Part shown: positions 1 to 58,977 of the stretch, in pieces | How positions within the stretch are numbered: the stretch's first letter is position 1 | How the letters are laid out: the number at the start of each line of letters is the position of its first letter | Assembly: GCA_944323335.1 (NCBI GenBank) | Contig: CALUSB010000004.1 | Coordinates: 1-64,000 of the forward strand | Reading direction: 5' to 3' | Length of the DNA stretch: 64,000 bases | From: Candidatus Gastranaerophilales bacterium | GTDB taxonomy: Bacteria > Cyanobacteriota > Vampirovibrionia > Gastranaerophilales > Gastranaerophilaceae | The notes under the pieces: generated by a model | Told to the model about the DNA's origin: nothing | Seen by the model: only the letters and a program-made list of their open reading frames with translations | Databases searched by the model: none | Program-made: the position numbers and the translations under genes

Positions 1-386
1 TTTGAAATTTCTTCGTTTAAAAACTCGCGTTCCTCATCTTTTGCAGTTTCGAGGAATTTTTTTATCTCTTCGATTTTATCTCTTTTTTCTCTTATTTTCT
101 TTTGAATGTTTAAACAAAGCTCATAGGGCTGCTCTTTTGAATATAGCATTTTTTCCATTTGAGATTTAAAGCCCAAAATATCTTCAAACTCGCTCTCGTC
201 ATAAAAGTTTTCCACTTCACGGGTGAAAATACAGTTGTAGACTATCTTTGTACCGTTGTCCGATTCATAGATAGAATACAAATCCCAGCCCTCTTTTGAC
301 ATGGAATTAAGCGTATTTTCAAGAAGAGTAATCTCATCACTCGGGCAAACTTTTATGCAAAATTCCTGACGTGTAGGTTTAAACAT
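1..386 (-). CDS. Unknown protein, N-terminal part (cut by window edge)
   Basis: An open frame starts at ATG 386 and runs off position 1, giving about 128 residues without a stop. The first 60 residues contain a stretch reading NSMSKEGWDLYSIYES, which resembles the small alpha/beta fold of DUF4177-type proteins (only a resemblance). Later residues are highly charged and probably helical. No Shine-Dalgarno site is visible; TAAAAT lies six bases before the ATG, as in several other genes here, so the message may be leaderless. It follows the SRP RNA gene on the same strand. Function unknown. Confidence 0.7.
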   Translation of the reverse strand, partial: MFKPTRQEFCIKVCPSDEITLLENTLNSMSKEGWDLYSIYESDNGTKIVYNCIFTREVENFYDESEFEDILGFKSQMEKMLYSKEQPYELCLNIQKKIREKRDKIEEIKKFLETAKDEEREFLNEEIS

Positions 387-422
387 ATTTTTATTTTAAC
401 ACACTATATAAAAAAATATAAT

Positions 423-678
423 GCCACGCCCTGCCTATCGTCACTCAAAATATAAACATCCATAAAAAACACCTCCCTTGCAAAGTTTCACACCCGTTAA
501 CCTCGACTTAGTGCTGCTATGTTTCCATCCTGACACGGTTCGCCGCATAATCGCCGCAAAAAATTGCACAATCAACAGTATTTTCGCTTTCAATTTACAT
601 CCAAAGCGCCTCATAGCAGGCTTTGCACCCGACATAAGCTTTCGGTCGAGGGCTTGCAACACCCCGTGAAGCGTGGCT
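423..678 (-). ncRNA. ffs: Signal recognition particle RNA, large (Alu-domain) bacterial type
   Basis: Reading the minus strand, positions 536-511 give the SRP apical domain: GTCAGG, a GGAA tetraloop and AGCAGC with the usual internal-loop bases. The ends close on each other: GCCACGC at 677-671 pairs with GCGTGGC at 429-423, and a U-rich run follows the 3' end. The 5' part (GGGTGCAAAGCCTGCTATG and neighbours) resembles the Alu region of the Bacillus-type RNA of about 270 nt. The length of about 256 nt therefore fits the long form rather than the 4.5S form. The RNA partners Ffh in targeting membrane proteins. Ends are uncertain by a few bases. Short frames inside it are chance. Confidence 0.93.
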
Positions 679-812
679 ATAAAATAATATCACAAATAAG
701 TGTATAAATACCATTATTAAATATTATTACAATATTTATATAAAAATAATATACATGCCAAAAATTCATAAAAAAACAATTTATAATATAAATAGAGAAT
801 AAAAGGAAGGCT

Positions 813-1151
813 ATGAGAGTTACTAGTGTAGAAGCAACTGCGCCCAACGGCAAAACATATCAAATGACCCGTCTTGGCAGAATAATCGGAACGGGCGGCT
901 TTGGCGCATATGGAATTTACCAGTCTTACAAATCTTTAACAAATGACGAGTATGTAAAAGAACTGACTGAAGCGGCAAAAGAGGCAACTAAGAATAAACT
1001 GCATACTTTTACCAAAACAAGAAAAGTTCTCTATGGTGCAAGTGCGGCAGCAATAACGGCACTTTGCGGATTTTTGTTTGGCGGTGTGGTTGATTTTTGT
1101 ATCAACAAGCATTCAAGAAACAAAGTAATGAAAGAAGATTCTAAAAATTAA
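813..1151 (+). CDS. Unknown small membrane protein
   Basis: 112 residues, preceded by AAGGAAGG at a good distance and a TATAAT at 782-787. There is a glycine-rich hydrophobic patch near residues 24-38 and a clear hydrophobic segment near residues 76-97 (ASAAAITALCGFLFGG), so it is probably membrane-attached, with a short lysine-rich tail. A charged helix separates the two. It converges on the glycosidase gene, whose stop lies directly adjacent. I do not recognise a family. Confidence 0.75.
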   Translation: MRVTSVEATAPNGKTYQMTRLGRIIGTGGFGAYGIYQSYKSLTNDEYVKELTEAAKEATKNKLHTFTKTRKVLYGASAAAITALCGFLFGGVVDFCINKHSRNKVMKEDSKN

Positions 1152-2984
1152 TTATTTTTTGTCTTCATCAGTGCAATCAACTGCAAAAACACATGCCCTA
1201 AGGACATCTGAGTATTTTTTGTCCATATGAGCCCAGTCAAAGAGCACCACGCCCTCAAGATTTTGGTTTCTTATTATATGGATTTGCTTAAGCAAATCTT
1301 CACTTTCACCTTCCATAAATCCTACAAAAAGCCCCGGATAAATTTTTGTTTTTGCTGAGGTTTTTCTTTTCAACTCTAAAAGCATATTATCTGCAAGATT
1401 GTAATCGGCAGTTAAAATAAGCGGAGTGAGCGCATCTACATAGTTATAAGAGCTCCATCTCTGCCAGTTTTGCTGTTTTGTTTCAAGACTTGTTTTATAA
1501 TCAGGGAAAACAACTGCCGAGAGCACCACACCGCGGTCTTTTAGAGCTTCTTTAATGCTGCCTACATATTTTGTAATTCTATCTTGCCTGTATGTGTCCC
1601 ACTTATTCCACATAGCAGTGTCAGGGTTAATATCAACAGGGTCAATACCGTAGATACTTTTAAACTCTTCTCTTGCATACGGCGTATAGCCCCAGTTTGA
1701 AGCGGCATAGTTTGATGAAGAGGCTTTTGCCGAGAGCGGATACCTTACATAGTCAAGATTTACGCCGTCAATATCGTATTTAGCACATATTTCAAGGATT
1801 AATTTTCTCAAAAACTCTGTTACCTCAGGGTTTGCAGGGTCAATAAAATATCCCCTGTGCTCGCTTATATGTGCTACAGGCTCATTTGAGCGGAAATTAT
1901 CCTTGTTTCTGTTGCCCCAAGCAGGTCTTACCGCAAGAATATTATATGCATCCTCCTGCGGGAGTCTGTTGCCTATATAAAACGACTCAAACCAAATGTG
2001 CAGTTCCATATTTCTCTTGTGTGCACCGCGAACCCAGCAAGAAAGCGGGTCAAAGCCTCTAAAGTTAGGGTTCTGCCCCTCAAAACCGTAGCTTTTCATA
2101 ACGTCTGAGGGGAAAATGGTTTTGCCGTGGAAATATGTTTCAAGAAATATTGTATTTATACCAAGCTGAGCCATTTCATTAAGCGTACGCTCAATTTCAG
2201 CCTCGCTTTTTTCTTTAGGTCGCACCCACACACCCTTTAGTTCGTTTTCAAGGTATGGAAGAGTATAGCTAAGTGCGCTTTGTGCCGAGACTATGGCATC
2301 TTTTGCGCATTGCAAAGATGCATTCGAATTTGAAGCATAAGAGCGTCTTAGTTCTTTTTTTGCTTTTTTAAGGTATTCTTTAACCTTTTTATCATCTCTG
2401 TTTTTGTACTGTTTTTTTGTTTTTTCTAAAATCTGCTCAACTTCTTCGATTTTAACTTTTGCACAGTAGCGATATGAGCTTATTGTTGTAAAAGAGTGTA
2501 AAATATTATTTTGCGGGTCAATTTTAACTTTTGTGCCTACTTTTAAATTGTCGCTAATCCATTTTTTTGCACTGCCATGGCCGCTTATTACAAAACCGTC
2601 ATGAGGAATTATAGAGTCAGCGCCCGTTAAGCGCACAACCGTATCGCCCACAACAACCGCTTCCTTACCAAACTCGTTTGTAAGAGTTCTTCTGCCGTAT
2701 TCTCTTTTATAAATTACAAGCTGGTTTGGGCCGCGATTTCCGGGGAAAGATATTCCAAGTTTGTTTGTTTTTGTACTGGGGTAAATAGCGTCGATTTTTC
2801 TTGAAGATTTTGCAATAATTCTGTCTTTTTTAGACAACTTAGCATACTCAACGCCTGATTCACTTTGTTCTTCAATTTTTAAAGGCACGGTGTCAGACAC
2901 CTGCAAAAGCGCGTCCTTAGCTGCAAGTGCAGGAATATTACTCATAAACACCGTAAATAAAACTGTTAAAAAAAGTTTTTTCAT
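1152..2984 (-). CDS. Secreted GHL10-type (DUF187 family) glycoside hydrolase
   Basis: About 610 residues. A signal peptide (KKLFLTVLFTVFMSNIPALAA) makes the second ATG, at 2984, the better start than 2990. An N-terminal region of about 230 residues is of unknown fold. Then comes a TIM-barrel domain typical of GHL10 proteins: LKGVWVRP, LGINTIFLETYFHGKT, HIWFESFYIGN, a run with DIDGVNLDYVRYP holding likely catalytic acids, and VVLSAVVFPD. The family acts on envelope or extracellular polysaccharide; the substrate here is unknown. TGTGTAAAAT lies just upstream and no ribosome site is evident. Confidence 0.85.
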   Translation of the reverse strand: MKKLFLTVLFTVFMSNIPALAAKDALLQVSDTVPLKIEEQSESGVEYAKLSKKDRIIAKSSRKIDAIYPSTKTNKLGISFPGNRGPNQLVIYKREYGRRTLTNEFGKEAVVVGDTVVRLTGADSIIPHDGFVISGHGSAKKWISDNLKVGTKVKIDPQNNILHSFTTISSYRYCAKVKIEEVEQILEKTKKQYKNRDDKKVKEYLKKAKKELRRSYASNSNASLQCAKDAIVSAQSALSYTLPYLENELKGVWVRPKEKSEAEIERTLNEMAQLGINTIFLETYFHGKTIFPSDVMKSYGFEGQNPNFRGFDPLSCWVRGAHKRNMELHIWFESFYIGNRLPQEDAYNILAVRPAWGNRNKDNFRSNEPVAHISEHRGYFIDPANPEVTEFLRKLILEICAKYDIDGVNLDYVRYPLSAKASSSNYAASNWGYTPYAREEFKSIYGIDPVDINPDTAMWNKWDTYRQDRITKYVGSIKEALKDRGVVLSAVVFPDYKTSLETKQQNWQRWSSYNYVDALTPLILTADYNLADNMLLELKRKTSAKTKIYPGLFVGFMEGESEDLLKQIHIIRNQNLEGVVLFDWAHMDKKYSDVLRACVFAVDCTDEDKK

Positions 2985-3069
2985 TACCATTTAATTTTAC
3001 ACAAAAATTTTACATAGTGCAAAAAATAATATATTATATATAATAATATTAAAAGGAGTTAAGCAAAAA

Positions 3070-3420
3070 ATGGCAAACGACAGCACACAAACAATGCCCA
3101 TAGAGGTCTGCATCTTAACAAAAGACCACGACATTAAAGGAACGGTTCACGTATCTAAACTTACAAAAGCTAACCGTGAATTAACCGAACTTTTAAACGA
3201 CAAAGACAGACGTTTCCTTGCCGTTACAAATGCTGAAATTATGGGTAAAAACTCATCAAGCGCTCCTCGAAGATATGACTTTCTTGAAGTTCATATGGAC
3301 GCTATTGTCATTATTCACCCTGCAACTCAAGTATTGTTTAAAGAAACTTCAAAAGCTCAGGAAGATATCGCAAGGTTTAGAGAATTAAGAAACAAACTCT
3401 CTCAAACAAAACCTTTTTAA
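3070..3420 (+). CDS. Unknown conserved-looking cytoplasmic protein
   Basis: 116 residues with AAAGGAG upstream. The sequence has a beta-rich pattern (IEVCILTKDHDIKGTVHV, RRFLAVTNAEIM, FLEVHMDAIVIIHPA) ending in a charged helix, with no signal peptide or membrane segment. The pattern recalls small single-domain proteins of the DUF6812 kind, but I hold that loosely. It is a single-gene unit closed by a strong terminator. Confidence 0.75.
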   Translation: MANDSTQTMPIEVCILTKDHDIKGTVHVSKLTKANRELTELLNDKDRRFLAVTNAEIMGKNSSSAPRRYDFLEVHMDAIVIIHPATQVLFKETSKAQEDIARFRELRNKLSQTKPF

Positions 3421-3427
3421 ATAATTT

Positions 3428-3455
3428 AAAAGCCCCTGTAAACGGGGCTTTTTTG
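3428..3455 (+). terminator. Rho-independent terminator
   Basis: AAGCCCC and GGGGCTT arms around a TGTAAAC loop are followed by a T run. It closes the 3070-3420 gene and also lies between two convergent genes. Confidence 0.9.
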
Positions 3456-3471
3456 TATGGTTAGGATATCT

Positions 3472-4536
3472 TTAATTCACCACTTTATTTAGCCCCTGAG
3501 GCTTATCGACATTTCTTTTTAACTTAAGTGCAATTTTAAGCGCAAGCATTTGCACAATAAAAACAACGCTTAAAACCCTCACAAGCATATCTTCACAATA
3601 GGGAAAAACCACACCAACAGCAGCCTCAAAGTCCTCTTGCGAATCGGTTATGACAACACTTTTGGGGTTATAATCTTTTCTTATTTTGGACAGTGTTTTT
3701 GTCTCAAATTCACAAAAATCACTTGTAATAATTTCAATTAGAGTATCAATTTTGTTCAAAATTGCCACATGCCCATGGACAAACTCACCCATAGAATAAG
3801 CATTTACATCTATGTAGGATGTCTCTTTTATCTTAAGCGCACACTCCCTTGCAAGAGCATAGTTTATACCCTGCCCTATAGCAGGAAACGCCTCATATTT
3901 TGAAAGAAAATTCGCCGCTTTATCTATATCAAGTGTCAAATCAAGCACACTTGAGATGTTTTTTTCTACATCTTTAATATTTTTCATATACTTTGCGACA
4001 TTTTTAAGCTTATTTTGGGCAATTTTTAGCGCGCACAAATAAAGAGCACACAAAGACACACTAAAGGATTTTGTTGCTGCAATTGAATTTTCAACCCCAG
4101 CGTCAATGTTTATTTTATAGTCGCACAAATCCCACAGGGTAGAGTTTTCATTGTTTACAATGACAAAAGCTCTGCCGCCCGCCCCTTTTACAATCTTTGC
4201 GGCAGATGTTGTATCATACGTTTCGCCTGATTGGCTTATGAAAAAATACAACGTGTCAGGGTCGACTTTTTTTGTTTCATCACACAAAAATTCTCCCGAA
4301 AACTCAACACTGGCGTCAATTCCCGATATAATTTCAAAAAATTTCTTACCGATAAAAGCGCAGTTGTAAGATGAACCGCTTGCAATTATTTTTATATTTT
4401 TAACATCAAGCGGCATATCAAGCACAACGGCGTAGTTTTTGACATATTTTTCTATCAAAGCACCCACAACCATTGACTGCTCGAGTATTTCAATTTCCAT
4501 TTGAGTTTTTTGTTTTTTTTGCTGCCAAAACACCAT
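3472..4536 (-). CDS. Double-SIS-domain sugar-phosphate isomerase/deaminase, GlmS C-terminal-like
   Basis: 354 residues with two SIS domains and no N-terminal glutaminase domain. Visible marks are GSSYNC, ISQSGETYDT, ENSIAATKSFSV and a GlmS-style tail DKPQGLNKVV carrying the lysine used in the isomerase site. The usual GlmS AAGELKHGP stretch is changed to YSMGEFVHGHVAIL. Without the Cys-type amidotransferase half it cannot use glutamine in the normal way, so a glucosamine-6-phosphate deaminase (NagB-II), fructosamine deglycase or related job is likely. Start 4536 has a weak GGCAGG; the ATG at 4500 is possible. Confidence 0.85.
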   Translation of the reverse strand: MVFWQQKKQKTQMEIEILEQSMVVGALIEKYVKNYAVVLDMPLDVKNIKIIASGSSYNCAFIGKKFFEIISGIDASVEFSGEFLCDETKKVDPDTLYFFISQSGETYDTTSAAKIVKGAGGRAFVIVNNENSTLWDLCDYKINIDAGVENSIAATKSFSVSLCALYLCALKIAQNKLKNVAKYMKNIKDVEKNISSVLDLTLDIDKAANFLSKYEAFPAIGQGINYALARECALKIKETSYIDVNAYSMGEFVHGHVAILNKIDTLIEIITSDFCEFETKTLSKIRKDYNPKSVVITDSQEDFEAAVGVVFPYCEDMLVRVLSVVFIVQMLALKIALKLKRNVDKPQGLNKVVN

Positions 4537-4580
4537 AGTATACCTGCCGTTAATATTTATATCTATATTATAATATTAAT

Positions 4581-5666
4581 ATGCCCAAAAGTGTCTATAT
4601 TCACATACCTTTTTGTTTAAAAAAATGCGCCTACTGCTCTTTTTTATCAGGCTTAAACCCTTGCAATGCAAGCGTTTACACAAAAGAGCTAGTTAAGGAG
4701 ATTAATTTTTTTTATAAAGGCGAAAAACTAAACACGATATACTTTGGAGGCGGAACTCCCTCATTACTTGAAATAAAAGACATAGAGAGGATTTTGGCCT
4801 GTTTTAATTTTGATAAAAAAACAGAAATTACACTTGAGGTTAATCCAAAAACAGTTGATTTAAAAAAACTAAAACAACTTCGCTCTTTGGGCATAAACCG
4901 TATAAGCCTCGGCGTGCAGTCGTTTGACGATAATTTACTAAAAATCATCAACCGTACCCACAGTTCAAAAGAAGCGCTCAAAACCATAGAAAATATAGCC
5001 CTTGCAGGTTTTGACAACTACAGTATAGATTTAATCTACGGTCTGCCCGAGCAAAACCTTGAAAACTGGAAAAAAACGCTAAAAATTGCAAAAGATATAA
5101 ACCCGCCTCACATCTCGCTATACGGGCTTAAAATCGAGCAGGGGTGCGGCTTTTATCTTAATCCGCCAAAAAATCTCCCCGATGATGACATGCAAGCTGA
5201 CATGTATGAAATGGCGCTTAATGAGTTTAAAAACTACTGCCACTATGAGTTTTCAAATTTTGCATACAAGCAAAAATATATTTCAAAACACAACATGACA
5301 TACTGGAACATCAAGCCCTACTGGGGTTTTGGGCTTGGAGCGTCGGGATTTGTCAGAAATAAACGCTACCAAAACGAAACGGATTTTGAAAAATATTTAA
5401 AAAACTCAACCGAAAAAAAGCACTATGAAAGCTCAAATCTGCTTGAAGAGCACATTTTCTTAGGGTTCAGAAAAACAAAAGGCATTAGAACAGATAAAAT
5501 AAACAGGCTTTTTAATATAGATTTTGATAAAAAATACAAGCAGCAGCTTGAAAAATATAAAAAATCAGGGTGTATTCAAAAAACTTTACATGGCTACAAA
5601 CTCACAAAAAAAGGCATAATGCTCTCTAATTACGTGCTTTGTGATTTTTTAGACGACACGATATAA
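4581..5666 (+). CDS. hemW: HemW-like radical SAM heme chaperone
   Basis: 361 residues, full length. The N-terminus has HIPFC with Cys12, Cys16 and Cys19 in CLKKCAYCSF, the radical-SAM [4Fe-4S] motif of HemW, lacking the extra Cys of true HemN. FGGGTPS (SAM binding) and LGVQSFDDNLLKIINRTHS follow, and a C-terminal winged-helix-like region completes it. The family was long annotated as oxygen-independent coproporphyrinogen oxidase but HemW binds and transfers heme. No Shine-Dalgarno site; TATAAT at 4569-4574 sits six bases before the ATG. Confidence 0.9.
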   Translation: MPKSVYIHIPFCLKKCAYCSFLSGLNPCNASVYTKELVKEINFFYKGEKLNTIYFGGGTPSLLEIKDIERILACFNFDKKTEITLEVNPKTVDLKKLKQLRSLGINRISLGVQSFDDNLLKIINRTHSSKEALKTIENIALAGFDNYSIDLIYGLPEQNLENWKKTLKIAKDINPPHISLYGLKIEQGCGFYLNPPKNLPDDDMQADMYEMALNEFKNYCHYEFSNFAYKQKYISKHNMTYWNIKPYWGFGLGASGFVRNKRYQNETDFEKYLKNSTEKKHYESSNLLEEHIFLGFRKTKGIRTDKINRLFNIDFDKKYKQQLEKYKKSGCIQKTLHGYKLTKKGIMLSNYVLCDFLDDTI

Positions 5667-5712
5667 CCACATTTAAGTTGCCAAAGAAGAAAAATAAGTC
5701 TAAGATTGTTGT

Positions 5713-6075
5713 ATGATGACAAATGCGCAAAATTACACGAAAAAACGCTGGTACGACAGCAAACCTTGGACGGATGAAGTCCTTGAAGTACTGCAAACGC
5801 TTTCTATACGCTCTCATTATGAAATTGCAAGAGAAGTTATAAAAGTAATTGACGTTATAAAGTCCAACAACCGCGAGCGCGATGAAGTCCCCTTGAGCCT
5901 TGGTTTAGACAGGGTTTTAGGACTTTATAAAGAAGAAAATAAGCGCAGATGGTATGATAAATCCATGCCTTTATCAAGAGTATTTAAAACCGCCTCCTGC
6001 CTGCCTGATGAAGATTTTCAAAATATCATGCAGGGGATATCAATGAGTTTAAGGAATGACACAAATGACAAGTAA
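5713..6075 (+). CDS. Unknown RWYD-repeat protein
   Basis: 120 residues of soluble, mostly helical sequence. RWYD occurs at residues 12-15 and again at 79-82, each followed by a Pro-containing turn and an amphipathic helix, so the protein looks like two copies of one unit. The same architecture occurs in the gene at 54076-54411. No known domain recognised. TAAGAT lies six bases before the ATG with no Shine-Dalgarno site. It is followed by an overlapping zinc-ribbon gene, so the two are probably co-expressed. Confidence 0.75.
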   Translation: MMTNAQNYTKKRWYDSKPWTDEVLEVLQTLSIRSHYEIAREVIKVIDVIKSNNRERDEVPLSLGLDRVLGLYKEENKRRWYDKSMPLSRVFKTASCLPDEDFQNIMQGISMSLRNDTNDK

Positions 6076-6379
6076 AGAAGAAATCGTTAAAAACATGCAG
6101 CAAGTCGTAGAGCAAATGTTTAAAGATGATGTTGATGAAAATCCCGACTCATTAAACGAATACTTTGACTGCAGCGCCTGCGGAAAAAACGCGCCTCTTG
6201 CAGGCTCCATTCAATACGGTAAGTATCGCTTGTGCAACTCTTGCGTGCTTTTGGCGGAAACCGGTTTTGCGCTTAAAAAGTTTGATGACATTCAAGCACT
6301 CATTGACGCTATGGAAGATAAGCGCCTCGAAGAGCTTTGCGACTTCATTAAAAAAGACGAGGCATCAGAGAATAATTGA
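6065..6379 (+). CDS. Small zinc-ribbon protein of unknown function
   Basis: 104 residues from ATG 6065 (107 from ATG 6056). AAGGA lies about nine bases before 6065 but touches 6056, so 6065 is preferred; either way it overlaps the stop of the RWYD gene. CSAC and CNSC pairs about 20 residues apart make a probable four-cysteine zinc site flanked by acidic helices. No membrane segment. Possibly a regulator or adaptor acting with its neighbour, but that is only inference from the overlap. Confidence 0.75.
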   Translation: MTSKEEIVKNMQQVVEQMFKDDVDENPDSLNEYFDCSACGKNAPLAGSIQYGKYRLCNSCVLLAETGFALKKFDDIQALIDAMEDKRLEELCDFIKKDEASENN

Positions 6380-6385
6380 TTTTGT

Positions 6386-6754
6386 ATGAAAATAAACAAT
6401 CTTAAAAACTATTTTTCACTGAATGTACTTGCTTTTTTCGGGTATTTGTTTTTTGCTTTCTGGGTCTATAAGACGATGTTTATAATCCCACGCACAGTTA
6501 GTACGGGAATGTTGAACAAAGAGTACAATGAGGGGATGTTTGTGGTTGTTTTAATGCTTGCATTCTTGCTTTTTCTTGCAATAATGTTTTGCGTTTTTTT
6601 ATTTGAACGCACTCTTGTAAAGCGTAAAGTTATAAAAAAACACGTGAGCAAATCTAAACTGCACGGTTTTTTATTTTATTTAGGACTTGTTTTATATTTT
6701 ATACCGTATTTTTATTTTATATTATTTTCAATACTGACACATTTTAAAATATAA
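6386..6754 (+). CDS. Unknown small membrane protein
   Basis: 122 residues with three strongly hydrophobic segments (about residues 11-31, 48-72 and 90-117) separated by short polar loops, one basic (KRKVIKKHVSKSKLHG). No family recognised. It begins six bases after the zinc-ribbon gene, so it probably belongs to the same transcription unit as 5713-6379. Confidence 0.7.
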   Translation: MKINNLKNYFSLNVLAFFGYLFFAFWVYKTMFIIPRTVSTGMLNKEYNEGMFVVVLMLAFLLFLAIMFCVFLFERTLVKRKVIKKHVSKSKLHGFLFYLGLVLYFIPYFYFILFSILTHFKI

Positions 6755-6779: not shown

Positions 6780-7001
6780 TTAATTTTTGTAAAGTTTTTT
6801 TACCTCTATTTCGTAGCCTAAAATCTCGCACAGGGCAAGCATTTCATCGTATGTAAAAGCCCCGCGATTTATACGTTTTGAAAAAGTATCAGGATTGTAT
6901 TCTCTGCCCGTTTTCTCTTGCAAAAGGGGTATTATGTCTTTATATATTTTCTTTTCCTGCTTCAAAAGTAGCTTTACAATTGCGTAAGAGTTCATTTTCA
7001 T
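6780..7001 (-). CDS. Small HTH-type protein, XRE-like
   Basis: 73 residues from ATG 7001. The pattern KLLLKQEKKIYKDIIPLL ... TFSKRINRGAFTYDEMLALCEILGYEIEV resembles the short helix-turn-helix proteins that start MNSYAIVK and end with a YEI strand. A longer frame could be opened at TTG 7037, but that TTG is the -35 box of a good promoter and the extra 12 residues are translated promoter. It is divergent from the 58-residue gene at 7127. Confidence 0.7.
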   Translation of the reverse strand: MKMNSYAIVKLLLKQEKKIYKDIIPLLQEKTGREYNPDTFSKRINRGAFTYDEMLALCEILGYEIEVKKLYKN

Positions 7002-7037
7002 GGGTTTAATTATAAATATTTTGGCAATTGTTGACAA
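7002..7037 (-). promoter_or_regulatory. Sigma-70 promoter feeding a leaderless start
   Basis: On the minus strand TTGTCA (7037-7032), a 17-base spacer and TATAAT (7014-7009) are followed after only seven bases by ATG 7001. A transcript starting at the normal distance would begin at or within a base of the start codon. Confidence 0.75.
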
Positions 7038-7303: not shown

Positions 7304-7328
7304 ACCCTGTTTTTAATATAATGCTTTT

Positions 7329-9712: not shown

Positions 9713-9782
9713 AATTCAATTTTAGTGGTATTTTATTCATGTTACTCAGGCATATAGCCTGAAATCTGGAGCGAATAAAGAT

Positions 9783-12284
9783 ATGAAAACGAACTTTTTA
9801 AAGGGCCAAAAAGGCTTTACTTTGGCGGAGTTATTAACTGCAGTCCTTGTGATATCGGTTATTATGGTAGCGCTTGCTCCTGTTATAACAAAGAGGATGA
9901 AAGATAGCGTCAGCGTACAGACTGATAATAAAAAGGGGCTTGAAATTTTTGCTAACCCGGGGACTTATACTTTTGATGTTCCAATTGGTATAAATACGCT
10001 CTTCCTGCAAGGTGCAGGAGGCGGCGGGGGCGGAGGCGGCTCAAGCTATATAGATAAAACTCTTTCTTTTACGCAAAATCGCACTTGGACTGTTCCAAAG
10101 GGAGTATCTCAAATTACATTTACTCTTCAAGGCTCAGGCGGTGGAGGCGGAGCCGGGTATTACACGTCAAAGACAGATGAATATGGCGGATGCGGTGCAC
10201 ACACAAATAAAATTCCATACATGGCAGATAACGGTCAGGATTTATGTGTTACAAGGTATATTGATAATGATTATTTAGGTACTAGGGATGGTGTTACATT
10301 TGTTAAACACGGCGAACAATGCTCAGGCAGTAAATGCTGTTACCAAAACGGAGGACCGTCTTATTTTTCTAAGTGTGCAGCAAATATTGCAGGAGCAAGT
10401 GGTTGTGGGAAAACTTATTGTTCAAAAGGCGCACAAGATTCTATATGTTTACATATGTCAGACTATGTCAGTGCACCGCCTTTTGCTAGCGTTATATGGA
10501 CAGACAGAAAAATAACCGAGGGCCGGCTTATAACTTCTACCGAGTATAAAAGAATTGCAAAATATTCCGTTGATAACGGGATTGAGGGATATATGGGACC
10601 TAACGGTATTGATTTTTGTTGGGGCGGTTATGACCCTTTTGGCACAAGTCACCCGTCGTTCCCTTTGTCCAGATGCGATGGTATGACAGACACTTGCATA
10701 GGCACAGGCAACAACTATTGTTATAACTATGGAATATATTTCTTAGGTGGCAGCGGAGCTCATGCGCAAAGTTTTAATAACAGTAATTATAGCATGGGCA
10801 ACCCTTCGGGCGTCTATCGCTTACTTTGCGTAAGAAACTATGTATCAAGAGAGCTCTATCCCGCTGCAGGCGGATACTCGGGAGCTGCTATTGAAAAAAC
10901 AATAAATGTTCTGCCAAATGACAAGCTTGAAATAACAATAGGTCAAGGAGGAGAGGGAGGTAGTCCAAACGGCGGCACAGGCAGACAAGGTGAAACAACA
11001 CAACTTGTTCACAAAAGAGGCTCTGTTATCCTTGGCACATATTATGTAAAAGGAGGTCTTGGAGGCTCAGGAGCAAAAAGTAATGCCGCAGGAGCTAACT
11101 CAGGCACTTCAACACCAAGCGGTACATGTTATGCAGAATTTAAAAATAAAATTGATGATGAAAGTTATTCTGTAAATCAAACGTGCTCTATACAGTCTTT
11201 TGCCGGTAGTTCAGGTACTTCTGCAAACGAATACAACCAGTGGACAGCAACCGCCAAAGCAGGTGCAGGTGCAGCGTTTAAAAACTCAGGCACGGGAGCC
11301 GAGGGAGCAACACTTGACACGGGTGAAAAAAATGCATCGGGTACTATAGTTACAGGTCAAGGCTTTGACGCGACAGAACCAAGTATGGGCGGAGGCGGAG
11401 GCTTCTGCGGAAGGGGTAAAACTTCCTGTGCAAAAGGCGGCAAGGGCGGTAAAGGAAAAGTAGAGATAAGCTACAGAGTAATGCTCCCCGGCGGCGGAGG
11501 CGGTTCGGGAACACGTGTTGGCGGTGTGAATGAATCAGGTAAAATTTATGAAATAATATACAAAGTACAAGAAGGCTCACGTCTTGTTTTTGAAGTGGGA
11601 GCAGGAGGCTCGGGCGGTTCACAAGGACAAGACGGAGCAAACGGTACGCCAACCGTCATAGGTTCAAATGACTTAATATTTCTGGCTGGTCATGGCGGTT
11701 ATGCTATAACACAAAGCCAAAAAAACAGTCTTTCATCTTGTATCGGAACAAATGAAGATTCTAGCGTAATAGGTAACTGTATTGATAATACAAACTACAA
11801 AGCAAAAGGCGGAGAGGCCTCACAAGTCAGTGTCGATTATACAAACTACACAGGTACAAGCACACTGGGGCTTATCGTTAATACAACAAATGTAAGCCAT
11901 AGTGTAAACAATGCAAAATATAAAGGATATGACGGTAAAAACGCTTCTCAAAACAGAAATGTTGTACCCTTTACGTATGGCTTTGACGGAGGCGTTGGCG
12001 GAGCACCTTTTGGCATAAGAGCAAATAACATAATAGGTGCCGTTACATGCGGCGGTGGTCTTTCAGGTAATAACGGATTACAAACAGATGCAACACAATA
12101 CATCTGTACATCAGGTGCACCAAATGCAAACAATGCAAAGCCTCACGATAGTGCAAACAATGAATTTGGAGGCTCAGGCGGAGGCGGAGGCGGTGTTGTA
12201 GATACCTCTTTTGACCTTGGTTCAGGCGGCTCGGGTGCAAACGGTTACTTAAGGATAAGGTGGGATGCAAGTGAGCAGGAGTAA
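9783..12284 (+). CDS. Giant glycine-rich prepilin-like surface protein
   Basis: 833 residues. The N-terminus KGQKGFTLAELLTAVLVISVIM is a type IV prepilin signal: cleavage after Gly, Phe+1, Glu+5, then a hydrophobic helix. The rest is glycine-rich and cysteine-containing, built from repeated units of the form TWTVPKGVSQITFTLQGSGG plus Gly runs, seen near residues 57-85, 96-130, 380-410, 560-640 and 800-828. Such glycine-rich domains occur in adhesins and phage fibres. It is far larger than ordinary pilins or pseudopilins (100-250 residues). It probably sits on a pilus or type II-like fibre as an adhesin; the assembly genes are not in this window. Confidence 0.85.
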   Translation: MKTNFLKGQKGFTLAELLTAVLVISVIMVALAPVITKRMKDSVSVQTDNKKGLEIFANPGTYTFDVPIGINTLFLQGAGGGGGGGGSSYIDKTLSFTQNRTWTVPKGVSQITFTLQGSGGGGGAGYYTSKTDEYGGCGAHTNKIPYMADNGQDLCVTRYIDNDYLGTRDGVTFVKHGEQCSGSKCCYQNGGPSYFSKCAANIAGASGCGKTYCSKGAQDSICLHMSDYVSAPPFASVIWTDRKITEGRLITSTEYKRIAKYSVDNGIEGYMGPNGIDFCWGGYDPFGTSHPSFPLSRCDGMTDTCIGTGNNYCYNYGIYFLGGSGAHAQSFNNSNYSMGNPSGVYRLLCVRNYVSRELYPAAGGYSGAAIEKTINVLPNDKLEITIGQGGEGGSPNGGTGRQGETTQLVHKRGSVILGTYYVKGGLGGSGAKSNAAGANSGTSTPSGTCYAEFKNKIDDESYSVNQTCSIQSFAGSSGTSANEYNQWTATAKAGAGAAFKNSGTGAEGATLDTGEKNASGTIVTGQGFDATEPSMGGGGGFCGRGKTSCAKGGKGGKGKVEISYRVMLPGGGGGSGTRVGGVNESGKIYEIIYKVQEGSRLVFEVGAGGSGGSQGQDGANGTPTVIGSNDLIFLAGHGGYAITQSQKNSLSSCIGTNEDSSVIGNCIDNTNYKAKGGEASQVSVDYTNYTGTSTLGLIVNTTNVSHSVNNAKYKGYDGKNASQNRNVVPFTYGFDGGVGGAPFGIRANNIIGAVTCGGGLSGNNGLQTDATQYICTSGAPNANNAKPHDSANNEFGGSGGGGGGVVDTSFDLGSGGSGANGYLRIRWDASEQE

Positions 12285-29244: not shown

Positions 29245-29256
29245 AAAAATATTATA

Positions 29257-31433: not shown

Positions 31434-31456
31434 AATTGTATTTTATACACAAAATA

Positions 31457-39455: not shown

Positions 39456-39510
39456 AGAATTATTTTATTATAAAATTAAAAAGAAGTAAAATTTATAAAC
39501 GAGGTAAAAA

Positions 39511-47253: not shown

Positions 47254-47256
47254 ATT

Positions 47257-52070: not shown

Positions 52071-52463
52071 TTATTCTGCTACCTGCATTTTTGCAGCCAT
52101 AGCAAGTTTTTGCGCTTCAGATAGATTTTCATAAGCGCTTATTCCTTTAAACTCCGTATCCATCGCAGCTTTAGCGCTTTCCGTTGCACCTGCAAAAGTG
52201 CCCATCGAAGCTTCTATATCTTTTATTCTATCCTCAGATAAATATTCTCTGGGGTTAATAAATTTACCAAATGCGATTGCTTTGTTTTGAATTGCGCTCA
52301 TTTGCATAGCGTCAAAAATCGCATCCGGGTCTTTAGTCTCAGTTTGAGGTTGAAGAGTATCAGGCTGTTTCTCTTCAGCTTTCTTTTCATCATTCCCTTT
52401 TTTAACCGCACCGTTTTGGACGTAAAAGTTAGCATTTGCAGCTATTTTTGAAATGTTGTCCAT
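52071..52463 (-). CDS. Unknown soluble protein
   Basis: 130 residues, with AAGGAGAAG before the ATG. The first half is Asn/Lys/Gln-rich and disordered-looking (KKGNDEKKAEEKQPDTLQPQ); the second is helical with many Ala and Met. Its composition recalls the unknown gene at 22104. No family recognised. Confidence 0.65.
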   Translation of the reverse strand: MDNISKIAANANFYVQNGAVKKGNDEKKAEEKQPDTLQPQTETKDPDAIFDAMQMSAIQNKAIAFGKFINPREYLSEDRIKDIEASMGTFAGATESAKAAMDTEFKGISAYENLSEAQKLAMAAKMQVAE

Positions 52464-52561
52464 ATCTTCTCCTTATTGTCCTTATTGTCATTGCTTACAA
52501 TAGGTATTTCGGATAGATTTTAATGAACTTTATATTTTGGACAACTAATTGTTACAAAAGT

Positions 52562-52795
52562 TTATATATCCTTAAACAAAGTTTCAAGATTTGTGTCTAG
52601 GGCATTTGCAATATCATAAATTTTACCTAATGCAGGAAACTTCTCCGCGCGCTCTATACAACCAAGATAATTTCTCGCAGTAGGCACTTTAAAAGCAAGC
52701 TCTTCTTGAGAAATTCCGCGCATTTCTCTGGCTTTCCTAATATTTTGTCCAAGTTTTTTATAAACAGGCAAATACTTATTGCTCTTTTTAGACAT
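52562..52795 (-). CDS. XRE-family HTH regulator B
   Basis: 77 residues from ATG 52795, one base past the stop of the previous gene; the frame to 52852 is an extension. LGQNIRKAREMRGISQEELA, VPTARNYLGCIERAEKFPAL and IYDIANALDTNLETLF form one HTH domain. Tandem with regulator A. Confidence 0.8.
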   Translation of the reverse strand: MSKKSNKYLPVYKKLGQNIRKAREMRGISQEELAFKVPTARNYLGCIERAEKFPALGKIYDIANALDTNLETLFKDI

Positions 52796-52796
52796 A

Positions 52797-53015
52797 TTAT
52801 TTAAAATCCAATAAATTATGAATATCTGTACCCAAGAACTCTGATAAAACAAGTATTTTACCTAAAGACATATTTGCTCTGCCGTTTTCAATATTGGCAA
52901 TATAGTTTTGAGAAACAGACATAATTTCTGCAAGCTTTTCCTGTGTTAAATCTTTCTTAATACGTTCTATTTTGACGTTTTTGCCAAACCTTTTTAAAAG
53001 ACTTGTTTTGTTCAT
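52797..53015 (-). CDS. XRE-family HTH regulator A
   Basis: 72 residues. FGKNVKIERIKKDLTQEKLA, MSVSQNYIANIENGRANMSL and ILVLSEFLGTDIHNLL form one Cro/C1-type domain. No Shine-Dalgarno site: TATACT lies eight bases before the ATG. An 11-bp inverted repeat covers this start, so self-regulation is likely. Confidence 0.85.
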   Translation of the reverse strand: MNKTSLLKRFGKNVKIERIKKDLTQEKLAEIMSVSQNYIANIENGRANMSLGKILVLSEFLGTDIHNLLDFK

Positions 53016-53049
53016 AATTTATAAGTATATAAATATTGACTTATAAATT
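53016..53049. promoter_or_regulatory. Candidate operator between divergent genes
   Basis: AATTTATAAGT (53016-53026) and ACTTATAAATT (53039-53049) are exact inverse copies with 12 bases between, about two helical turns centre to centre. The site overlaps the start of regulator A and a TTGACT (53036-53041) that may be the -35 box for the gene to the right. Confidence 0.55.
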
Positions 53050-53101
53050 TAACTATGTTATTTATTATAATATAAAACTTATTAGTTATATAACAGACCA
53101 A

Positions 53102-53299
53102 ATGAACAAACAAAAAGTACTACAAAAAGCCATCAAACTGGCTGAAGAATTGGAAGAATTGCAGGAAGAAATGTCCGTCGCGCTTGAAAACAAAGACGAC
53201 GGACAAATTATTGAAATTTTAAAAAAGATGCAAATTAATTCTGATAAAAGCTGCGAAGTACTTAAAGATTTTGTTAAATTAAATAAAAAAATTAATTAA
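53102..53299 (+). CDS. Short coiled-coil protein
   Basis: 65 residues from ATG 53102; an earlier TTG start at 53036 is more likely the -35 box. The sequence is one helix with heptads (KLAEELEELQEEMSVALENK). Divergent from the XRE pair and overlapping the end of folE2. Function unknown. Confidence 0.6.
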   Translation: MNKQKVLQKAIKLAEELEELQEEMSVALENKDDGQIIEILKKMQINSDKSCEVLKDFVKLNKKIN

Positions 53300-54083
53300 T
53301 ATCACTTACCTGTCTTGCCCAGGCGCTATGGTTATGAATACTCTCAAATGCCTCTATTTCAACTTCATAATTGCTAATAACGGGGTGATTTTCAAGCTTA
53401 ATGACCACATCTCGAATAACATCTTCAACAAACTTAGGGTTATTATACGCCTGCTCGGTTACGAATTTTTCATCCTCTCTTTTTAAAAGCGAATAAAGCT
53501 GAGATGAGCCGCAGGACTCAATTTCTTCTATCAAATCTTCAAGCCAGATGTGCTTATCTTCATCGTATGAAACTTTAAGCGATACAATTGCTCTTTGATT
53601 ATGCGCTCCGCAGTCAGAGATTTCTTTTGAGCAGGGGCAAAGGGTTGTAAGAGGGATTTTTATACCCAGATAAAATTTATAATTGTCACTCTCATCAAGC
53701 GTACCCTCAAAGTAGCAATCATAGCACATAAGCGCTTCTAGAGCGGATTTTGGGGCTTTCTTTTTAACAAAATATTTAAAATCAAACTTCAGATACGCGC
53801 TTTTTGACTCGAGGCGGATTTTCATGTCCTCAAGCATTTTTTTAATATCGACACCGATGAGATTTTTCTTTCTGTAATCTTCCAATATCTCAATAAAGCG
53901 CGACATGTGAGTGCCTTTGTAGTTTGATGGCAAATAAACACTCATTTTTGCCTTTGCATATACTTTCTGAGATGTTTTAGAACTCTTTCTTTCAATATTT
54001 AAAAGGGTTTCTACGTTTTTAACACCGACTTTTTGCAAAGGAATATTTCTTTTATCTATGCTGTTTTGTACGTCTTTAATCAT
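53292..54083 (-). CDS. folE2: GTP cyclohydrolase FolE2 (type IB)
   Basis: 263 residues from ATG 54083, which overlaps the RWYD gene stop by eight bases; the frame to 54110 is an extension. LTTLCPCSKEISDCGAHNQR holds the metal-binding Cys and FESIHNHSAWA ends the protein, both FolE2 signatures. It begins folate and queuosine synthesis and replaces FolE when zinc is scarce in some species. queA is also in the window. Confidence 0.92.
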   Translation of the reverse strand: MIKDVQNSIDKRNIPLQKVGVKNVETLLNIERKSSKTSQKVYAKAKMSVYLPSNYKGTHMSRFIEILEDYRKKNLIGVDIKKMLEDMKIRLESKSAYLKFDFKYFVKKKAPKSALEALMCYDCYFEGTLDESDNYKFYLGIKIPLTTLCPCSKEISDCGAHNQRAIVSLKVSYDEDKHIWLEDLIEEIESCGSSQLYSLLKREDEKFVTEQAYNNPKFVEDVIRDVVIKLENHPVISNYEVEIEAFESIHNHSAWARQVSDIN

Positions 54084-54411
54084 TATCCTGAGGGAAACTC
54101 TTTTCTTCAAGCGCTAAAAGCAGTTTAAGCGCTGCTTTTCTTTGAGTTTTTGGGTCAGCATTTCTTAAAACTTCTATTGCTTTTATCATAACAGGGTCAT
54201 TATCATACCAACGATTACCTTTGCCCTGATATTTTGTAACTATTTCATAAATGCGCTCAATAACATCTTTTGCTACATCTTCCTGCAATTTAAGTATAAA
54301 GCTCTTTGCAGCTTCTTTTTCATCATCCGACGACAATCTTAAAAGCTCAAGCGCCTCTTTTAAGATAGGGTCTCTGTCATACCAGCGTTTATGTTCAAAA
54401 GATTCTTCCAT
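54076..54411 (-). CDS. Unknown RWYD-repeat protein, second paralogue
   Basis: 111 residues with AGGTGAG before the ATG. RWYD at residues 9-12 and 67-70 each begin a unit RWYDxDPxxxxAxExLR, so this copy shows the repeat more clearly than the gene at 5713. Amphipathic helices follow each motif. It is coupled to folE2 by an overlap. Function unknown. Confidence 0.78.
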   Translation of the reverse strand: MEESFEHKRWYDRDPILKEALELLRLSSDDEKEAAKSFILKLQEDVAKDVIERIYEIVTKYQGKGNRWYDNDPVMIKAIEVLRNADPKTQRKAALKLLLALEEKSFPQDND

Positions 54412-54519
54412 TACTCACCTGCTAAAAATATCAAAAAAAGTATATCATACGCACGATAGACAAACAAGCACTATAATAGTAAGATATAATTGCAATAATG
54501 TGTACACTTTGGAGGATGA

Positions 54520-55524
54520 GTGCAAAATCAACCTGATACAAATCCTATAGAAAATAATCCTGCCATAAATCAGGGTGATTTTAATGCGCTTGAAAATGAT
54601 ATAGATTTAATTGAAGATATATCAGAAGAGTTTAAAAAAGGCTACAAACTCTACAACTTCAGGCGTCCGGATAAATTTTCAAAAGAACACTTAAGAGCAC
54701 TTCAAGATATTCACAGGGACTTTGTAAGGCAGTTGGCGCTTACTTTGACTACTTATCTTCGTATGGATGTCGAGATGGATATAATCTCTGTCGACCAGCT
54801 CACATACGATGAGTTTGTCTGCTCTATGCCTCCACATTTTCAAAACGGCATTTTTAAACTAAATCCGCTATCGGGTGAAATTTCTCTTGGTTTAAGCAGT
54901 GAAGTTTTAACCGTAATACTTGACAGAATGCTTGGCGGGGATGGCTCAAACCACGACTTTAACCGTGATTTGACACAAATTGAAGAAGCTCTTACAAAAA
55001 AAATTATTGAAAAAATAATAAAAACGCTTGAAAACTCCTGGTGTTCCGTTTTACCCGTAAAAGCTGAATTTACAAGTCTTGATAACGGATATCACGTTGT
55101 GCCTATTACAACATCAGGTGAAATTGTTGCACTTATTTCTTTTGAAATAAGACTGGGTTCAAAAAACTTCGGACTTATAAATCTGTGTTTCCCTTACCCT
55201 GTCTTAGAAACAGTACTGCAAAAACTCACTCCGCAATACATTTTCCAACATACAAATGTTGTTTCAAATGAAATAGGAAGAAATGAAATTTTGAACAAAA
55301 TCTACCCTGCAAACCTTGATTTAAGCGTTGTTTTAGGAACTGCAAAAGTTCTTATAAACGATGTACTCGAGCTTAAAGAAGGCGATGTAATTAAGCTTGA
55401 CCAAAAAATTGATGAAAAACTGTATGTTTTAATAGATAACAAGAAAAAATTCGAAGCAATGCCCGGCAGAAAAGACGGCAGAATATGTGTAAAAATTGCT
55501 GACAGATATGTACCAAAGGATTAA
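54520..55524 (+). CDS. fliM: Flagellar motor switch protein FliM
   Basis: 334 residues from GTG 54520 with GGAGG before it. [39 protein letters not shown] and a C-terminal SpoA domain ([20 protein letters not shown]) match FliM. The conserved N-terminal CheY-binding peptide is not clearly present, though [17 protein letters not shown] is in that place. It forms the switch ring with FliN encoded two bases on. Confidence 0.9.
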
Positions 55525-55526
55525 AA

Positions 55527-55868
55527 ATGTCTGAAAAAGAGCCCAAAGACCTTGATTTAAGTAAATTTGAAAATGTTGAGCGTCCTGTTGAAACACAGCA
55601 GGATAATACTTCAGGCAGCACTTTAGGGCTTTTGATGGATGTTGAGCTTGAGTTAAGCGCGATTTTAGGCTCAACCGATATGAACATAAAAAAAATTCTT
55701 GAACTCACAAAAGGTTCAATAATAGAACTTGAAAACAAAACCGCAGAGCCCATTGACCTGCTTGTAAACGGTAAATTAATCGGCAAGGGTGAAGTTGTAA
55801 TTATCGAAGATAATTTCGGGCTTAGAATAACAGATACCGTTGATGAGGGCTTAAAAATCCATGAGTGA
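55527..55868 (+). CDS. fliN: Flagellar motor switch protein FliN
   Basis: 113 residues. A SpoA domain ([40 protein letters not shown]) fills residues 35-110 after a disordered head. It forms the C-ring base. It overlaps the response regulator gene by eight bases. Confidence 0.9.
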
Positions 55869-56460
55869 GCAAGTTGTAATCCAAAAAGAGACAATTGATT
55901 TAATCTATAAAATCGCACAAATCGATAAACCCGAAACTCTTAGCGATGAAACCATTAAACTTGCACTTTGTGTAATTCAAAAAAAATTAAGCGACGCCGA
56001 GTCTTTAGATATTATTCCTCAAGAAACTAAAGAGGGTGAATACTCAGAAGCTGATTGGCAAAGAGACTTAGCTATGGCAGGCTTTGGCGAAAAGAAAAAA
56101 ATTCTTGTAGTAGACGATATTGGAGTTGTAACTTATCAACTAAAAGTACTGTTCCAAAAAATCGGTTTTGAAGTTGATACGGCAAAAGATATTTATTCTG
56201 CAGCGCAGCTTGTAAGAAAAAATGTCTATGACTTTGTTGTAATGGATTTATTTGTTTCAACGGAAAGAGAAGGGTTTTTGCTCCTTGATGAGACAAAGAA
56301 AATAATTGTTGCAAACAACCTAAAAACAAAAATTATTGTGATAACAGCATCTACCAAGGGCGAGCACAAGGTAAAATGTCTAAATCGCGGTGCAAATATG
56401 TTCTTGGAAAAAGACGCCGGCTGGCAAGATGAGCTTGTTAAATTTGTAACAACGGCTTAA
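55861..56460 (+). CDS. CheY-like response regulator with an extra N-terminal helix region
   Basis: 199 residues. Residues 1-78 are helical and unrecognised; then a receiver domain: [13 protein letters not shown] (phosphorylated Asp), VITAS and FLEKDAG (Lys). There is no output domain, so it should act by binding a protein. It lies in fliM-fliN, which suggests the flagellar switch as target (inference). Confidence 0.87.
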
Positions 56461-57510
56461 CTACTCAATTAACATACAATCGCCATAGCTGAAAAATCTG
56501 TATTTTTCTTTTATTGCTTCCCTATATGCTTCAAGCACAAATTCTCTTGACGCAAATGCGCTTACAAGCATTATAAGAGTTGATTTTGGCAGGTGAAAAT
56601 TTGTGATGAGTTTATCTATTGATTTTATTTTATAAGGCGGATAAATAAAAATATCCGTTTCATCTTGTGTCGGAATAATTTTACCGTGTTTTAAATAAGT
56701 AGCCTCAAGCGTTCTTAAAACCGTTGTTCCAACGGCTACAACAGAGCCTTTGGCTGAGTTTATTGTATCTGCTGTTTCTTTTGGTATTACAAAGCTTTCA
56801 TGGTGCATTTTGTGCTTTGTTATATCATTTGTTTTAACGGGCAAAAACGTCCCTAAACCTACATTTAGCGTAACATAGGCTATTTTTACACCTTTTTTTT
56901 CAATTTCTTTGAGGATTTCTCTGCTAAAGTGCAGTCCCGCAGTCGGCGCTGCGGCAGAGCCTGTTACTTTTGCAAAAACGGTCTGATAATCTTCCTTATC
57001 ATCCGCCGTTGCCTCTCTTTGAATGTAAGGAGGCAGAGGGATTGAGCCGTATTGATTTAGAGCTTCATAAACATCATTTGCGCTAAATATAAGCTCTACA
57101 AGGTTTTTTGGCAGGTCGCCCTCTTTAGAGTTTTCTATATCTTTTTTAATTACTTTAATTTTAAAATCATCGCTGACACTTAGTGTTTCATCTTCTTTGA
57201 CCCTTTTTGAGCGCTTCATAAGACAAAACCACCTGTTATCTTTTCCCTCGGGATTAAGCAAAAATACCTCAACCTCGCCGCCTGTAGCTCTTTTTGCTAT
57301 TATTCTTGCGGGAAAAACCTTTGTGTTATTTAAAACAAGTACATCATCTTTTTTTAAATAATCAACAATATCAAAAAAGTGCTTGTGCTCAAGGGTTTTG
57401 CTGTTTTTGTGCAAAACCATCATTCTTGCATTTTCACGCTTTTTTAAAGGATAATTTGCAATAAGTTCATCGGGTAAATTGTAGTTAAAATCTTCAGTTG
57501 TTAAATTCAT
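56461..57510 (-). CDS. queA: tRNA preQ1(34) S-adenosylmethionine ribosyltransferase-isomerase
   Basis: 349 residues. DFNYNLPDELIANYPLKKRE, VLVLNNTKVFPARI, GSAAAPTAGLHFS and TNFHLPKSTLIMLVSAFA are the QueA signatures. It adds the cyclopentene unit in queuosine synthesis. Overlaps the end of gcvPB by 17 bases. Confidence 0.96.
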   Translation of the reverse strand: MNLTTEDFNYNLPDELIANYPLKKRENARMMVLHKNSKTLEHKHFFDIVDYLKKDDVLVLNNTKVFPARIIAKRATGGEVEVFLLNPEGKDNRWFCLMKRSKRVKEDETLSVSDDFKIKVIKKDIENSKEGDLPKNLVELIFSANDVYEALNQYGSIPLPPYIQREATADDKEDYQTVFAKVTGSAAAPTAGLHFSREILKEIEKKGVKIAYVTLNVGLGTFLPVKTNDITKHKMHHESFVIPKETADTINSAKGSVVAVGTTVLRTLEATYLKHGKIIPTQDETDIFIYPPYKIKSIDKLITNFHLPKSTLIMLVSAFASREFVLEAYREAIKEKYRFFSYGDCMLIE

Positions 57511-58915
57511 ATTTTATATTCAAATGTCTTGCCGCAAGAGTTTCATCAGCCTTTGAAACAGGTGTTTTTGAGGGATAGTTTTCAAAACTCTTTGGGTCTG
57601 AGTCAACTTCTTTTGCAATTTCAATCATAATATTTATAAAGTTATCCAAAACTTCCTTGGATTCGCTTTCTGTAGGTTCAATCATCATTGCCTCATGGAC
57701 AATTAAAGGGAAATAAACCGTTGGCGGGTGGCAGTTTGAATCCATTAGCCTCTTTGCAATTTGAAGTGTTGATACACCTTTTTCTTTTTGTAAATCTCCC
57801 GATAAAACAAACTCATGCATACAAGCTCTGTCATATGGAAGTTTATAGTATTTTTTTAGTTTTTCTTTTATATAATTAGCGCACAAAACAGCATCTGTAC
57901 TTGCATTTTTTAAGTCTTTTGCCATCATTAAAATATAAGTATAGGCTTTTACAAGTACTGAAAAATTACCGTAATATGTGCTTACCTTGCCTATAGAATA
58001 AGGCTTATCATAATTTCTGAAATATTTTTCCCCGTCAAATTCAATTGTAGGAGTCGGCAGATAATCTTTTAATTTTTCAACAACCCCAACAGGGCCTGCC
58101 CCGGGGCCTCCGCCGCCGTGCGGAGTAGAGAAAGTCTTGTGTAAGTTAAGGTGAACTATATCAAAACCCATTAAGCGGGGGTTTGTATGACCCATAACTG
58201 CGTTAAGATTTGCCCCGTCATAATAAAGTAATGAGCCGTTTTTATGCATTAAATCAGATATTTTTAAAATATTTTCATCATAAAGCCCTAAAGTATTAGG
58301 GTTTGTCATCATAATGGCTGCAATCTCATCCCCACAGGTATTTATAATGTTTTCAAGCTCTTTTATATCAACCCCGCCTGATACATCGGACTTTACTTCA
58401 ATACAGTCAAAACCGTTCATCTTAGCGCTCATCGGGTTTGTACCGTGGGCGTTATCAGGGATTATAACTTTTTTTCTTTTAATGTCGTTTTTTTGTAAAA
58501 AATATTTTTTTACTATACTCATTGCACAAAACTCGCCATGAGCTCCTGCGCACGGCTGAAGAGTAATAGCATCCATTCCTGTAATGATTTTTAGCATTTG
58601 CTCTAAATCATACATAATCTCAAGAGCACCCTGAGAGTCAATATCAGACTGCATAGGATGCAGATTTAGAAAATTTTCATCTCTTGCAACTTGCTCGTTT
58701 ACCCTTGGATTATATTTCATAGTGCAAGAGCCGAGAGGATAAAAGCCTTTTTCTACACAAAAATTTCTATCAGAAAGTTCTTTAAAGTGCCTCATCACCT
58801 CAAGTTCTGACATATCAGGCAAATTAAGAGGGGATGTTCTTTTGTTAAACTCAATTTCACCTTTAAATAAAGGTTTAGAGTGCAGAGATTTATCCTTTTC
58901 AAATATCGTTTTCAT
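57494..58915 (-). CDS. gcvPB: Glycine dehydrogenase (decarboxylating), subunit 2
   Basis: 473 residues. FYPLGSCTMKYNPRVNEQ, ALITLQPCAGAHGEF (seen as ITLQPCAGAHGEF), DNAHGTNPMSA and HLNLHKTFSTPHGGGGPGAG, whose Lys binds PLP. It forms the P protein with GcvPA, encoded 23 kb away. TAGTAT lies six bases before ATG with no Shine-Dalgarno site. Head of gcvPB-queA. Confidence 0.96.
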   Translation of the reverse strand: MKTIFEKDKSLHSKPLFKGEIEFNKRTSPLNLPDMSELEVMRHFKELSDRNFCVEKGFYPLGSCTMKYNPRVNEQVARDENFLNLHPMQSDIDSQGALEIMYDLEQMLKIITGMDAITLQPCAGAHGEFCAMSIVKKYFLQKNDIKRKKVIIPDNAHGTNPMSAKMNGFDCIEVKSDVSGGVDIKELENIINTCGDEIAAIMMTNPNTLGLYDENILKISDLMHKNGSLLYYDGANLNAVMGHTNPRLMGFDIVHLNLHKTFSTPHGGGGPGAGPVGVVEKLKDYLPTPTIEFDGEKYFRNYDKPYSIGKVSTYYGNFSVLVKAYTYILMMAKDLKNASTDAVLCANYIKEKLKKYYKLPYDRACMHEFVLSGDLQKEKGVSTLQIAKRLMDSNCHPPTVYFPLIVHEAMMIEPTESESKEVLDNFINIMIEIAKEVDSDPKSFENYPSKTPVSKADETLAARHLNIKYEFNN

Positions 58916-58977
58916 ACTTTAATACTACTACAAAATTTTATTTTTGGCTTAAAATTAAGACGGGAGGGTTTTAAAAA

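Follow-up and report, generated by a model that had tools for sequence, protein, structure and literature searches.

Does a -10-like hexamer placed at one fixed distance before a start codon mark a gene whose messenger RNA (mRNA) has no leader? The question is raised by contig CALUSB010000004.1 of a Candidatus Gastranaerophilales bacterium (assembly GCA_944323335.1), whose first 64,000 nucleotides, here called the window (G000:C4 in our numbering), were the subject of an earlier note. That note listed nine starts at which TANNNT (N, any base) stands exactly six bases before ATG in the absence of a Shine-Dalgarno (SD) site, and proposed that leaderless and SD-led initiation exist side by side. 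All nine hexamers were found where they had been placed, each with the six-base spacing and none with an SD site, as were TTGTCA-17-TATAAT seven bases before the ATG at 7001(-) and TATACT eight bases before that at 53015(-). The description of the nine starts as operon heads held for the most part, except that 31433(-) closely follows a gene on the same strand and the gene starting at 386(-) runs off the contig edge. The nine compare with about 2.4 expected in some 34 heads of the window (P ~9e-4). As set out below, we conclude that extended -10 promoters are very probably set in this genome so that the mRNA would begin at the AUG itself, and that this leaderless mode would coexist with SD-led genes.

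The host genome comprises 1.67 Mb in 49 contigs, from which we drew a main test set of 520 kb, consisting of the leading 20 kb from each of 26 contigs, all outside the window. Genes were called by a simple codon-pair score blind to upstream motifs, yielding 507 genes, of which 277 are operon heads starting with ATG. Background was taken as the mean count per offset (the number of bases between hexamer and start codon) at 12-40 bases upstream, and dinucleotide shuffling served as a second control. This rule-based sample replaced a first one from the same genome, which had been picked after the TATAAT-N6-ATG positions were known; that sample covered 27% of the bases yet held 34 of the 62 genome matches, which inflated the counts, and it was set aside.

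A count of offsets against shuffled DNA had been proposed in the earlier note, and in the independent sample it revealed a sharp excess at six. Near-consensus TATAAT stands at offset six in 28 of the 277 heads, whereas the upstream background is 5.3 per offset and shuffled sequence gives 3.1 (P ~4e-12); for the exact hexamer the count is 11, against 0.9 and 0.65, respectively. For the looser TANNNT the count is 32 against 14.6, a background of 5% that lies near the one in 25 per fixed offset first estimated. A TAA or TAG at position -12 shares the frame of the ATG and is hence an in-frame stop, and TATAAT-like hexamers were counted as a control; TA[CT]NNT, which is never a stop, likewise peaks at offset six. 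Offset seven is raised as well (near-consensus TATAAT, 9 vs 5.3). Across the whole genome and before any ATG, TATAAT-N6-ATG occurs 62 times, compared with 82 for N5 and N7 together and 119 for N10-N12 together, or about 40 per offset. The offset-six box is commoner at operon heads (28/277) than at operon-internal genes (7/199; P = 0.007), and no peak at six was seen before the few GTG and TTG starts of an own-genome sample. Judged by the excess at offsets six and seven, candidate leaderless genes appear to number about 26 of the 277 heads, which corresponds to roughly 10% of operon heads and 5% of the 507 genes.

Promoter context was analyzed in a pooled set of 53 offset-six sites from this genome and four other genomes of the family, with 461 other heads for comparison. 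The extended -10 motif TGn precedes the hexamer at 25 of the 53 sites but at only 29 of the 461 other heads (P = 1e-13), although these bases played no part in the selection. A pyrimidine occupies position -1 at 85% of the offset-six sites versus 58% of the other heads (P = 9e-5), and a T tract is present at -19 to -17. These features support reading the hexamers as parts of genuine extended -10 promoters. Using TGn-TATAAT with at most one mismatch as a ruler in 513 heads, we found this strong box at six bases from the ATG in 24 cases and at seven in three, never at zero to five, only seven times in total at 8-20, and then broadly at 21-40. Extended -10 boxes thus lie at six or seven bases or beyond about 20, seldom between, and leaders should therefore be either absent or long enough for an SD site; leader lengths would accordingly be bimodal, none or about 15-35 nt.

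SD tetramers were found ahead of 47% of all heads; for operon-internal genes the figure is 64%, and in control upstream stretches it is 7-14%. Because of this surplus, SD pairing can be taken as the main initiation mode, with which the other coexists. Among heads with a box at offset six or seven, only one in 37 has an SD tetramer. The proposal that the two modes operate side by side is favored by the sharp offset-six excess, the extended -10 context, the bimodal predicted leaders and the conservation described below. A candidate 16S ribosomal RNA 3′ end matching an anti-SD sequence (C27:9321) turned out not to be ribosomal RNA. Separately, 112 of the 277 heads have neither an SD tetramer nor a -10 box at offset six or seven; some of these are presumably wrong starts, and the rest may use another mode.

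Transcription normally starts just after a six-base discriminator. Housekeeping-sigma extended -10 promoters of the form TTnTGn-TATAAT would, with this geometry, place the transcription start on the A of the ATG. The mRNA would then have no leader, and the ribosome would have to start on a 5′-terminal AUG with no help from SD pairing. This leaderless mode would serve about 10% of operon heads (5% of genes), the remainder being mostly SD-led with leaders of about 15-35 nt. Both the position of the transcription start and a leaderless translation carried out by 70S ribosomes or assisted by IF2 are what we infer from the arrangement of the sequence.

Genomes of relatives were sampled at about 100 kb each. 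In four other genomes of the family, each from a different genus and one from the window's own, the offset-six box again exceeded background (25 vs 5.6 pooled; P = 2e-9), with a weak excess in G157 taken alone. Three genomes taken, on their size and composition, as photosynthetic cyanobacteria (G142, G071 and G104) have no offset-six peak (1 vs 1.9) and hardly any strong extended -10 boxes. For lineages f4, f6, f10, f13 and f14, whole-genome counts lean the same way as in the family, with too few sites per sample to judge. In three genomes of lineage f3 in the same class (G093, G233 and G237), a diffuse rise of -10-like hexamers occurs at offsets 6-9 rather than at exactly six, which hints at very short leaders.

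Conservation was traced at the individual window sites (Table 1). The block preceding ATG 4581, CTATATTATAATATTAATATG, recurs unchanged or almost so in seven relatives despite divergence of the flank beyond it, and TTTACT-17-TAAAAT-N6-ATG before 39455 is conserved throughout same-genus relatives. ATG 5713 has moved in L003-L005, L007 and L008, yet the TANNNT-N6-ATG spacing was kept. Before 58915, TAGTAT or TAATAT stands at six in most same-genus relatives (exceptions, L199 and L207), while L203 carries TATAAT-N6-ATG inside an otherwise changed flank. The site of 7001 is kept in L002 and L005, and that of 9712 in two near-identical relatives only. At dxr the spacing is six in L001-L006 and nine in L007-L009; a near-consensus -10 at offset six or seven was found in 16 of 38 scored loci, nearly all of them Gastranaerophilales, the others having SD sites or longer spacing. 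The gene thus alternates between TATAAT-N6-ATG and SD starts, and the mode therefore appears to have switched within the family.

Table 1. Promoter-like elements preceding start codons in the window
Element	Position	Strand	Context
TAAAAT	393..398	-	six bases before ATG 386; signal recognition particle RNA gene lies just upstream; weak case, motif alone
TATAAT -10	4569..4574	+	six bases before ATG 4581, radical SAM / HemN-like gene (Pfam Radical_SAM + HemN_C)
TAAGAT -10	5701..5706	+	six bases before ATG 5713; TTGCCA 17 bp upstream at 5678-5683
TATAAT -10	7009..7014	-	seven bases before ATG 7001; TTGTCA at 7032-7037
TATAAT -10	7317..7322	+	six bases before ATG 7329, dxr (DXP reductoisomerase)
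TAAAAT -10-like	9719..9724	-	six bases before ATG 9712, HTH_3 regulator
TATAAT -10	29251..29256	-	six bases before ATG 29244, MnmD-like methyltransferase
TAAAAT	31440..31445	-	six bases before ATG 31433, itself 23 nt downstream of a same-strand gene; weak case, motif alone
TAAAAT -10	39462..39467	-	six bases before ATG 39455
TTTACT, candidate -35	39485..39490	-	17 bp from -10 of 39455; sequence conserved, -35 role putative
TAGTAT -10-like	58922..58927	-	six bases before ATG 58915, glycine cleavage P-protein subunit 2

The most compact arrangement was met outside the window, between rarA and a solute-binding protein gene (L071:4537-4552, G000:C6). Only 14 bp separate the two ATGs, and this spacer accommodates a pair of -10 boxes that overlap, with six bases between each box and the ATG it serves; with 14 bp between the ATGs, there is no room for an SD leader starting inside it. 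Using a search pattern that fixed only the first codons of rarA and required an ATG within 8-38 bases, we recovered a spacer of exactly 14 bp in 15 genomes from five genera (g1, g22, g24, g27 and g134). The 14-mer exists in eight variants, and every one retains a TA-N-N-AT box on each strand at the six-base distance from the respective ATG. In all 15 genomes the second ATG is preceded by C, and the resulting CATG, read on the other strand, forms the TGn before the rarA -10; the start codon of one gene would thus serve as the extended -10 of the opposite gene.

Opposed -10 boxes, again at six bases on both sides, also lie between bioB and a TPR gene (L184:5185-5208; 22 bp between ATGs) and between an Fe-S CCG-domain protein gene and a 56-aa open reading frame (ORF) (L069:17467-17488; 20 bp). 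The 22-bp bioB/TPR spacer, sought among 146 genomes, was matched in its own genome only. Among the 71 divergent pairs of the rule-based sample, 4 carry a -10 box at 5-8 bases on both sides, against about 1.2 expected if the two sides were independent, as estimated from head rates. Measured from A to A of the ATGs, the distances in these three pairs, the tightest with both boxes at six, are 15 bp for the rarA pair, 21 bp for the CCG-domain pair and 23 bp for bioB/TPR. In Escherichia coli, bidirectional promoters usually have start-to-start distances of 10, 18 or 23 bp (PMC12825309). The symmetric layout described there, with opposed, overlapping -10 boxes, recurs here at distances near 10, 18 and 23 bp if small departures are allowed, here as a pattern read from DNA; the difference is that both products would be leaderless, the start codons themselves being the transcription starts. 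Some divergent pairs in the family may be driven by a single minimal promoter, with transcription beginning at both start codons and one of these, through CATG, supplying the opposite TGn; at rarA, 14 bp would then contain the -10 region and the translation start region of either gene, in five genera. We consider this about evenly balanced between true and false. The rarA spacer offers a compact natural test of two-way leaderless initiation.

Several observations weigh against leaderless initiation at the offset-six sites or qualify it. The absence of SD motifs there is partly mechanical, as the -10 box fills the SD position, and -35 elements at 16-18 bp, sought as a general signal, show weak enrichment. 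All starts were defined by a home-made, simple gene caller, and six of the nine window hexamers begin with an in-frame stop (TAA or TAG), which longest-ORF start choice favors because position -12 is in frame. Since some dxr orthologues hold their -10 at nine or ten bases, leaders a few bases long must be tolerated.

These dxr spacings fit the alternative that survives best, namely that the promoters are real but produce a leader of 1-4 nt, or work beside an upstream promoter giving a leadered message. The rise at offset seven agrees with it, as does a further -10-like hexamer 18-41 bases upstream of 16 of the 37 heads with a box at six or seven; however, offset six dominates, and the pyrimidine at -1 and A at +1 fit a start at the A, making this alternative unlikely. 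Considerably less probable is that the motif acts in the translation of a leadered mRNA, as an unstructured, AT-rich stretch near the ATG that binds protein S1, a role proposed in SD-poor Bacteroidetes: the flank is indeed AT-rich and the 112 heads lacking both motifs would suit such a signal, but the motif has all the sequence marks of an extended -10 promoter, keeps a single precise distance, is commoner at operon heads than inside operons, and stands on both strands of the 14-bp rarA spacer. Chance in AT-rich intergenic DNA, where TANNNT is common and start choice favors TAA or TAG at -12, draws on the in-frame stops and on modest window numbers (TANNNT at six, 5 vs 2.1 expected, by our own head calls), but is scarcely credible, since the held-out sample already refutes it through the peak of the non-stop exact TATAAT, TGn is enriched outside the selected bases, and sites including the rarA pair are conserved.

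Promoters that set the mRNA start at the AUG have well-studied counterparts. Leaderless (TA-led) genes, which occur beside SD-led genes, are marked by TANNNT starting some 12 bp ahead of the start codon; they exceed 20% of genes in Actinobacteria and Deinococcus-Thermus, and many Cyanobacteria are reported to use neither class (Zheng et al. 2011, PMC3160421). The present genome resembles this pattern in its -10-like hexamer at about 12 bp, its fixed-distance excess, and SD motifs that are missing from these starts but present before other genes; it differs in that about 5% of genes appear to be involved, in a non-photosynthetic sister lineage. For Deinococcus-Thermus, a 2025 study, which also scanned bacteria at large, reports experimental proof that TANNNT right before ATG is a promoter making leaderless mRNA, with about 30% of ORFs concerned (PMC12340547). 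The same TANNNT adjoins the ATG in our genome, but with a lower share, in an AT-rich setting, and as near-consensus TATAAT with extended TGn. In Mycobacterium tuberculosis, where the mark likewise has experimental backing, a quarter of genes with a primary transcription start site are leaderless, TGn occurs at 7% of TANNNT promoters, and close-set divergent promoters are common (PMC3898074); TANNNT without a conserved -35 is shared with our sites, whereas in our set roughly one offset-six site in two has TGn. The leaderless share in this genome appears modest, below that of Deinococcus or Mycobacterium.

A literature search, with most subscription journals outside its reach, found neither an earlier report of leaderless genes in Melainabacteria/Gastranaerophilales nor a description of a leaderless bidirectional promoter. 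We regard the system as a known mechanism in a newly documented clade, together with one unusually compact conserved promoter. It would mean that leaderless initiation is a sizeable mode in one of the major gut lineages, sister to the photosynthetic cyanobacteria, where no peak was found, and the rule TGn-TATAAT-N6-ATG can correct gene starts in uncultured Gastranaerophilales genomes. Leaderless mRNAs react differently to some initiation inhibitors and stresses, and a leaderless mode would thus bear on regulation in these bacteria.

Three further features of the window may be recorded. At 58915-58978 a divergent pair of mixed mode joins the leaderless-type P-protein subunit gene to a thiG-like gene (named from its sequence) with a GGGAGG SD motif, and the spacer of this pair is highly conserved within the genus. 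A gene for the large bacterial signal recognition particle RNA occupies 424-676 (-), 38 nt upstream of the 386(-) start. Positions 9783-12284 encode an 833-aa glycine-rich protein with a prepilin-type methylation motif at its N terminus.

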